Shown here in pieces: positions 49,001 to 52,000 of a stretch of DNA of 64,000 nt. This DNA comes from Antedon mediterranea (taxonomy: Eukaryota; Echinodermata; Crinoidea; Comatulida; Antedonidae). The number at the start of each line of letters is the position of its first letter. The first letter of the stretch is position 1. Location of the stretch: positions 191,001 through 255,000 of the forward strand of contig NC_092677.1 of NCBI RefSeq assembly GCF_964355755.1, read 5' to 3'. A model generated the notes under the pieces. It did not search any database. It was not told where the DNA came from and saw only the letters and a list, made by a program, of their open reading frames with translations. The translations under genes and the position numbers were made by a program.

Positions 49001-52000
49001 TTTGTGCCTAAATGAACAACTGTTGACATTAACATGTAATGTAGTTTTAATGTTAATTAAAGTTTAAAACAAAAACAATTTGAAAAATAAATGAAGCAAA
49101 TATAACAAAGCCAACAAAACTGTTTGAAAAAAGCTAATAAAACTGTTTGAAAAAAAAAGCTAACAAAACTGTTTGAAAAAAGCTAACAAAACTGTTTGAA
49201 AACGAAGCAAACAAAATTTATTCAATTAATACTAGTGCCAATGTTAAACTTGTTCAATTAATACAAGTGCCAATGTTGAACTTGTTCAATTAATACAAGT
49301 GCCAATGTTGAACTTGTTCAATTAATACAAGTGCCAATGTTGAACTTGTTCAATTAATACAAGTGCCAATGTTGAACTTGTTCAATTAATACAAGTGCCA
49401 ATGTTGAACTTGTTCAATTAATACAAGTGCCAATGTTGAACTTGTTCAATTAATACAAGTGCCAATGTTGAACTTGTTCAATTAATACTAGTACCAATGT
49501 TGAACTTGTTCAATTAATACTAGTACCAATGTTGAACTTGTTCAATTAATACAAGTGCCAATGTTGAACTTGTTCAATTAATACTAGTACCAATGTTGAA
49601 CTTGTTCAATTAATACTAGTGCCAATGTTGAACTTGTTCAATTAATACTAGTGCCAATGTTGAACTTGTTCAATTAATACTAGTGCCAATGTTGAACTTG
49701 TTCAATTAATACTAGTGCCAATGTTGAACTTGTTCAATTAATACTAGTACCAATGTTGAACTTGTTCAATTAATACTAGTGCCAATGTTGAACTTGTTCA
49801 ATTAATACTAGTGCCAATGTTGAACTTGTTCAATTAATACTAGTGCCAATGTTGAACAGCTTGGGTTTAAATTGCTTCTTGTTTTGAGATTCCAATTTAT
49901 AGTATTTGTTTTGAGATTCCAATTAATTTGTTTTTTTGTAACCGGTTTCACTTACATTATCCTTAGTAGCTTCCTCAAACCCTGCCTTTGAACACTCAAT
50001 ACCAAAAGCAAAGAAACACAAAATAGATCCAATCCAAAGCAAGGTGGCGAAACCACCAAACAACTGTTTGCAAAACTTAATCCATTCAGGTGTTTTTGGA
50101 GGTGGTGTTAGTGAGTTGGGCCCATCACGTTCTAAAACTTCCTTAGCTCTCTGTTTTGTTAATCCCTGAATGTCAACAACATTATAAACAAAGTTAGTAA
50201 TAACAACATTGAACTGCAAATAGCAGTAGTTAAAGTTTGTACTTACATTATCTTTCTGAGTTTCTTCAAATCCAGTTTTACTACATGCAATGCCAAAGGC
50301 AAAGAAACACAGGATGGAACCAAGCCAAAGGAGAGTGGAAAAACCACCAAAAAGTTGTCGACAAAATTTCAGCCATTCTGGCGTCTTCGGTGGTGGAGTT
50401 AAACGATTTTTACCATAACGTAGCAAATTGCTGGCGACTCCTTCTGGTGTTAATCCCTATTATGCATGTTTTATCACCAAATATGGATATGTACTACTCA
50501 TAGATTATATATTCATGATATCAACATCAACATCTCTCAAACTCTCACACAATCATCAACATTTTCAGCAATAAATATATCATGTTATGGTTAAAAGTAT
50601 CAACATCAAAATCTCTCAAACTCTCACACAATCATCAACATTTTCAGCAATAAATATATCATATTATGGTTAAAAGTATCAACATTAAAATCTCTTAAAC
50701 TCTCACACAATCATCAACATCTTCAGCAAAAAACATATCAATACAGAGTCATGTAATCTTGTTTAAAGTACACACTTTATACTTTAAATAACTGAATCAG
50801 GAATATACATTTCACAATATTGACTTACTTCAGTAGGACTTGTGGTCAAACGCTTGTAAAGATCGTCAATTGCAATTTTATGCTCATCCTACAAGAATAA
50901 TTAACAGAACCATTACAGAATTCATTAAAATATCAAATGAATGAGGATTATTTTTGTAATGGACTAAAGTACTTTGCTTATTTATGTAATGTTTATGATG
51001 AATAGAAATAAAGAAGAAATAAAATATGATAAGAAAAATTAATCAAGATGTGAAGAAAATGTAAAAGAATTAATGTTTCAACTGCATAAATTAAATACAT
51101 TATATTCTAAGAAGGCAATTGATCTTAACGATTTCTTAACCTTGGATATGAATCATTTATGCATAACACTAACAGGATATATTGACCTTCATCCAATCAC
51201 GTTGCACGAACCGTTCACATCCTTTTAAGGACATGGCAATTATCTATGCAGGAACTGGCTGACAGAATGAATACATTAAAAGAGAGACACATCTTGTGTA
51301 CAGTATAAACGTTTACTAGAAGGGGTATTCACTAGAAATATATAATGTATATTATTATTTTGTAAAAGCATTAAATAGAAGGTTTTAATATTTAAAAAAT
51401 AAAAAATAAAACAACAAACATACAAGTTCCAACTCCTTTTTTAGATCAGCCATATCTGCCTTCTTCTTGCCTTTCTTCCCCTTCTTGGCAGAAGGCTCCA
51501 CTGTCACTTTCATGTCCCCCTAACAAAATAAAATTGTATTCATATTAACATTGTGCCATTAAGTTAATAAAATTGCTTTAACTTAATGTGCAGTCCTGAT
51601 TAATTATGTGTTATAACTCAGATATCTTGAATGCGTAGAAGAAGCTGTACAAAAAAATTAATAAATTAACATCTTATTTGATATTGATAAAGTATTCCAT
51701 ATTATTAACATTGTGCCATTCACTGAATAAAATTCAACTTTGTGTGTACAGTACTAACTATTTAGTGAATATCTAAGATATCTTGAATGCGTAGAAGAAA
51801 CTCTATAAAAAATGAATAACTTAACATCTTATTTGATAATATATTCCTACAAGATTACTTACATTAGCCTCATAATTCAGCAGTACGGGCGTGTTATCCG
51901 CCATTATCTTAATTTATATGTTACTCTCGCACTACCAAAACTAAATCTACCAGTATTTCTAATGGTATCCTATCTTTATGGGATAATATAAATGTTAGTA

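Follow-up and report, generated by a model that had tools for sequence, protein, structure and literature searches.

The vertebrate alpha1 to alpha4 isoforms of the Na+,K+-ATPase differ in their kinetics and in their affinity for ouabain. Vertebrates thus resemble the case described here in having several isoforms of the pump, but theirs are encoded by separate genes, whereas the isoforms considered below would be generated from alternative exons of one gene. A likeness closer to this arrangement is found in insects, where ATPalpha1, a member of the same gene family, has exons for the N-terminal third of the pump in diverged tandem copies. Two alternatively spliced exons of this gene were masked in PMC6733596, which mentions an exon 6b by name. 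Three insect gene models retrieved in our searches (P0006-P0008, from the dragonfly Ladona, the thrips Frankliniella and the mayfly Ephemera) contain two diverged M2 exons (LYLG...MVPQ) within a single chain. The doubled M2 of these chains presumably reflects prediction errors that joined alternative exons, and we infer that the pair corresponds to exon 6a/6b of Drosophila. The same models also possess tandem near-copies of a VPAISLAYE...DKLV segment (four in Ladona), suggesting a second cluster of alternative exons in insect pumps.

More generally, tandem exon substitution is recurrent in ion-transport genes according to PMC9741552, and the term ATP1A is absent from the main text of that work. 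Mutually exclusive exons are typically adjacent, homologous and equal in length and phase. In the titles and abstracts of the open-licence papers listed (including the top 20 of 171, 20 of 89 and 20 of 44) we found no description of alternative Na+,K+-ATPase M1 exons or of a splice variant of a crinoid pump. Given the diverged tandem M2 pair of the three insect gene models, tandem alternative exons in this pump are already known in kind, while their occurrence in the M1 exon and in the crinoid lineage looks new.

Here we describe two such exons, termed A and B, in a 64,000-nt stretch of the genome of the crinoid Antedon mediterranea (hereafter the window). They share all the above properties of mutually exclusive exons, which are also those of tandem duplicated exons, and differ from the general case in that the exchanged unit is the whole M1 helix of a P-type pump together with the A-domain linker. 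They differ from the insect pair in the part of the pump concerned, the duplicated insect exon encoding M2 and its cytosolic end. We consider it probable that the M1 exon of this gene has been duplicated, with B as the default and A as a regulated alternative, and that one of the two is spliced into each transcript to yield two complete pumps.

Gene structure and identification of the exon pair

The window contains a complete Na+,K+-ATPase alpha gene on its minus strand, extending from an ATG at position 51904 (or from a candidate first exon beginning at 54563) to a stop codon at 43050 (Table 1). Joining 16 exons, with exon A as the M1 exon, reproduces exactly the 1031 residues of P0002, annotated as 'sodium/potassium-transporting ATPase subunit alpha-3-like isoform X2 [Antedon mediterranea]', and 15 of the 15 introns of this model are GT-AG. 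The protein contains the Pfam domains PF00122, PF00689, PF13246 and PF00690. It is a full-length P-type ATPase with a DKTGT site and is closest to Na+,K+-ATPase alpha, which identifies it as a pump of this type (P2C ATPase).

Table 1. Features of the Na+,K+-ATPase alpha gene in the window.
Feature	Position	Strand	Remarks
Second candidate first exon (MAATAKKSD)	54537..54563	minus	donor GTAAGT; start shared with Anneissia isoform X1
First exon of P0002 (MADNTP...)	51863..51904	minus	part of P0002 model
Exon 2 of the pump gene	51424..51519	minus	P0002 model
Exon directly upstream of A (DEHK...)	50829..50888	minus	P0002 model
Exon A, derived alternative M1 exon (most likely)	50247..50456	minus	70 codons; Tyr68, Lys70, Ala111 (pig numbering)
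A-B intron, 81 nt, without in-frame stop	50166..50246	minus	
Exon B, conserved alternative M1 exon	49956..50165	minus	70 codons; Asp68, Pro70, Glu111 (pig numbering)
M2 exon (LYLG...MVPQ), directly downstream of the pair	48441..48554	minus	P0002 model
Remaining 11 exons and introns to the stop codon	43050..48122	minus	P0002 model

The two candidate first exons correspond to different database isoforms: MAATAKKSD is of the type found in Anneissia X1, which carries the B version of M1, and MADNTP is of the type found in Antedon X2, which carries A. Choice of promoter and choice of M1 exon might therefore be coupled. Further downstream, the 3' end of one pump exon and its donor are present in five tandem 62-nt copies that are 99% alike (46585-46896); P0002 uses the first donor, and reading into the later copies leads to in-frame stops. 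Open reading frames on the minus strand at 40536-41269 resemble mitochondrial ATP synthase coupling factor 6.

Exons A and B are each 210 nt long, in phase 0, open and flanked by AG...GT, and are identical at 140 of 210 nucleotides and 51 of 70 residues. The first-pass annotation of this sequence, which had described adjacent phase-0 exons of 70 codons separated by 81 bp, is thus borne out in this respect. The alternatives encode the segment of the alpha chain equivalent to pig residues 55-122. Among solved structures, the best matches of both are Na+,K+-ATPase alpha chains, aligned along the full length of each exon, and the Cation_ATPase_N domain (PF00690) is recognized in A and B with nearly the same score (40.9 and 40.2 bits, respectively). 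A tblastn search within the window recovered two M1 exons and one M2 exon. Stretches of the form AG-210-GT are common, 361 being present on the two strands of the window and 28 of them, including A and B, being open in phase 0; exon length and phase alone therefore carry little weight. Chance origin of the pair is ruled out by the number of identical residues at the right position in the gene.

Distribution of the two versions among database proteins

The proposal that A and B are tandem alternative exons gained support from database isoforms. A alone is used in isoform X2 of Antedon, and B alone can be traced through its orthologue in isoform X1 of Anneissia japonica (P0005), to which Antedon exon B is identical at 64 of 70 residues; both are database predictions, isoforms labelled X being by convention produced automatically. 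P0002 and P0005 are the two named crinoid matches, and each contains one M1 version; no crinoid-named match with both versions was present among the matches listed (the best 120 of 1982 and the best 120 of 1330). The protein database had been clustered at 90% identity, so that P0002 stands for three sequences and P0005 for two, with other isoforms merged.

A search for short chains bearing an A-like exon gave 79 matches, with a best identity of 70%, no crinoid among those named and none near-identical to A. For ten of the 79, A yields the higher score, its margin over B never exceeding 17 points; for six of these the margin is a single point, and these six are pieces starting inside M1. An M1 pair comparable to A and B was found nowhere else among the 301 proteins fetched (from the same best 120 of 1982 and 120 of 1330 and from the short-chain search, isoforms merged). 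Two M1 segments were detected by motif in only two of these 301, the sturgeon models P0001, which looks like two fused genes, and P0003, in which the copies are identical, and both were set aside. More broadly, the sturgeon, bat and scorpion models in which exons are doubled (P0001, P0003, P0004 and P0009) were discarded as having identical or fused copies.

Origin of exon A

With the Anneissia sequence as reference, 15 of the 19 amino acid differences between A and B are assigned to A and none to B (chi-square 15.0, p = 0.0001); the other 4 could not be polarised. The end branches of an exon tree of 20 rows (Amphiura P0181 left out) tell the same story, with a length of 0.53 for A and about zero for B. 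A, B and the Anneissia B version constitute one group in this tree, with a support of 89/93 that lies under the star level of the tool. These three share an M1-M2 loop that exceeds that of the remaining 17 tree rows by two residues; a loop longer by two residues than that of mammals had been noted in the first-pass annotation and was confirmed against the pig sequence. Because the changes fall on A, the three sequences group together and the longer loop is common to them, exon A most likely originated in the crinoid lineage from an exon resembling B. Within the group the tree pairs A with B (89/85, not starred). The alternative that joins B with Anneissia B has a p-AU of 0.43, however, and the branch of A is long, so that a duplication before the Antedon-Anneissia split and one after it would both be compatible with the tree. 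The grouping of the M1 pair with the crinoid B version, whose longer loop it shares, makes an origin independent of the insect M2 pair likely.

Constraint on exon A and strength of its splice signals

The two exons differ with a pN of 0.213 and a pS of 0.748, and pN falls to 0.08 in exon residues 19-56, the stretch running through helix M1. Synonymous sites are near saturation. At 0.1, 0.2 and 0.3 substitutions per site, simulated neutral evolution left 720, 30 and none, respectively, of 3000 copies open with no more than 19 amino acid changes. The pN/pS values, this simulation and a Pfam score equal to that of B rule out exon A as a long-decaying copy; a very recent loss of function would be compatible with the 720 open copies at the lowest divergence.

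Exon A has nevertheless changed at residues that are otherwise conserved. In an alignment of 150 distinct rows drawn from 222 proteins (P0002, low-scoring and repeated rows having been dropped), Ala61 is present in 140 rows, Asp68 in 135 and Pro70 in 144, and all three are altered in A, Asp68 to Tyr and Pro70 to Lys. The resulting aromatic-plus-basic pattern (YGR or FGK before N) is present in 5 of 300 other fetched proteins, namely four from Macrostomum (P0010-P0012 and P0093) and P0091.

Good splice sites had been claimed for both exons, which is wrong for the acceptor of A: with a matrix derived from the remaining 14 acceptors of the P0002 model, it scores -5.1, the weakest value of all those scored, compared with 2.0 for B and leave-one-out scores of 0.3 to 13.2 for the 14 themselves. 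The T fraction at this acceptor is 0.24, and the branch motif YTNAY is absent from the last 60 intron nucleotides before the exon. The weak acceptor and the lack of this motif suggest that exon A requires an activator. Much of the intron before A, close to the weak acceptor, is occupied by a 79-nt tandem repeat of 2.8 copies (50519-50740).

Poor acceptor signals and altered conserved residues are also what might be anticipated if exon A were a rarely used cassette or a splicing relic, B making nearly all pumps and isoform X2 being an unimportant product of prediction. We regard this as unlikely, for the frame of A is intact, constraint on its residues 19-56 is strong, its Pfam score matches that of B and a database isoform uses it, and with synonymous sites near-saturated the neutral copies resembling it are very few or none at 0.2 and 0.3 substitutions per site. 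Judged from its sequence, exon A looks like a divergent working exon rather than a relic.

Predicted consequences of the exchange for the pump

The 19 amino acid differences are unevenly distributed: 11 are located in exon residues 1-18, which correspond to the cytosolic A-domain segment before M1 (pig 55-72), 4 in residues 19-56 and 4 in the loop (residues 57-70). Differences are denser in residues 1-18 than in residues 19-56 (Fisher p = 0.00015), although residues 1-18 are also more variable among other pumps and part of the unevenness is expected.

The first-pass annotation had proposed that the two pumps could differ in toxin sensitivity or kinetics, and the residues on which it relied were read correctly: A has Ala and B has Glu at position 111, and both exons retain C104, F108 and the last Asn. 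Position 111 is an established ouabain-binding site, as stated in PMC11193536, and its difference between the exons is what would recommend A and B as a switch of sensitivity to cardiotonic steroids of the ouabain type. As the point of the exchange, such a switch appears quite improbable to us. The other three positions are common to A and B, and the loop accounts for 4 of the 19 differences against 11 in the cytosolic segment. Furthermore, Glu111 is present in all nine other echinoderm sequences examined (Anneissia, two urchins, three sea stars, two brittle-star pumps, one of them Amphiura P0181, and one sea cucumber), and Ala111 in none of the 150 alignment rows, 9 of which have a gap at this position. 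Since most differences are cytosolic, Glu111 is common to these nine sequences and Ala111 is new, steroid pharmacology is better viewed as a side possibility. Kinetics or regulation would be the likelier effect of the exchange, its larger consequence probably lying on the cytosolic side as an altered movement or regulation of the A domain.

Possible choice between the two exons

The donors of A and B are identical (AAT/GTAAGT). At 81 nt, the intron between them is shorter than any of those in the P0002 model (15 introns, 118-1692 nt), the longest of which spans exon B. This short intron contains the branch-point consensus TACTAAC (50199-50193), whose presumed branch A at 50194 lies 52 nt from the donor of A. 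In PMC5740500, steric exclusion was judged by a donor-to-branch-point distance of <50 nt, and the presumed distance of 52 nt is borderline, slightly over this value. Occupation of the A donor would probably block the B acceptor across so short an intron, and the A donor would then be joined to the M2 exon, skipping B. Mutual exclusivity of the two exons is plausible. A mechanism based on RNA pairing between docking sites received no support. No unusual pairing of the docker/selector kind was detected between introns: for the three intron pairs, 65, 26 and 25 of 100 shuffles did at least as well, and duplex energies were within those of the shuffles. The downstream intron was represented in this comparison by the first 400 of its 1401 nt. 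The intron after exon B also contains two minisatellites, one of about 20 copies of 32 nt (49221-49857) and one of 6 copies of 55 nt (48589-48926).

Inclusion of both exons would stay in frame, even with the 81-nt intron retained: a 177-codon open frame (49923-50456, minus strand) runs from exon A across the intron and through and beyond exon B. Nonsense-mediated decay is therefore not expected to enforce exclusivity, and only splicing or protein quality control could prevent a product containing A and B. That the physiological isoform itself includes both exons and hence two M1 segments, as two 210-nt phase-0 exons in a continuous open frame would permit, is very improbable, given that an additional M1 would be expected to disturb membrane topology, that both named crinoid matches carry a single version, and that the two-M1 proteins among the 301 fetched are the fused and identical-copy sturgeon models.

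Proposed scenario and significance

In the scenario that we favour, a crinoid Na+,K+-ATPase alpha gene would have undergone tandem duplication of the exon that encodes helix M1, the A-domain-to-M1 segment before it and the M1-M2 loop after it. Copy B would have retained the ancestral sequence and is probably the default, while copy A would have diverged under constraint and, having a weak acceptor, is probably the regulated alternative. Splicing of one or the other between the same neighbouring exons would allow one gene to produce two complete pumps. Most of the difference between these pumps would reside in the cytosolic A-domain segment (pig 55-72), where it may tune conformational kinetics or regulation, and the extracellular loop would differ slightly.

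A broader reading, which we offer tentatively and would not yet call probable, is that crinoids diversify the pump by splicing and not only by extra genes. The A/B choice, maybe coupled to the choice of first exon, would exchange the cytosolic A-domain/M1 lever to provide two kinetically different pumps that serve different tissues, and would have arisen independently of the insect M2 pair. If this reading were true, evolution would have turned repeatedly to the M1-M2 hairpin of the sodium pump as a splicing switch.

Phylogenies of the pump gene may mix paralogous exons, and a warning is in order on this account. A and B also offer a clean test pair for the role of A-domain residues 55-72 in pump kinetics. 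If both isoforms are made, they would amount to a natural experiment on where in the pump variation is worthwhile: the exchange varies M1 and the A-domain linker, and the ion-binding helices and catalytic domains stay fixed. Taken with the insect M2 pair, this suggests that exon duplication has affected the M1-M2 hairpin on independent occasions.
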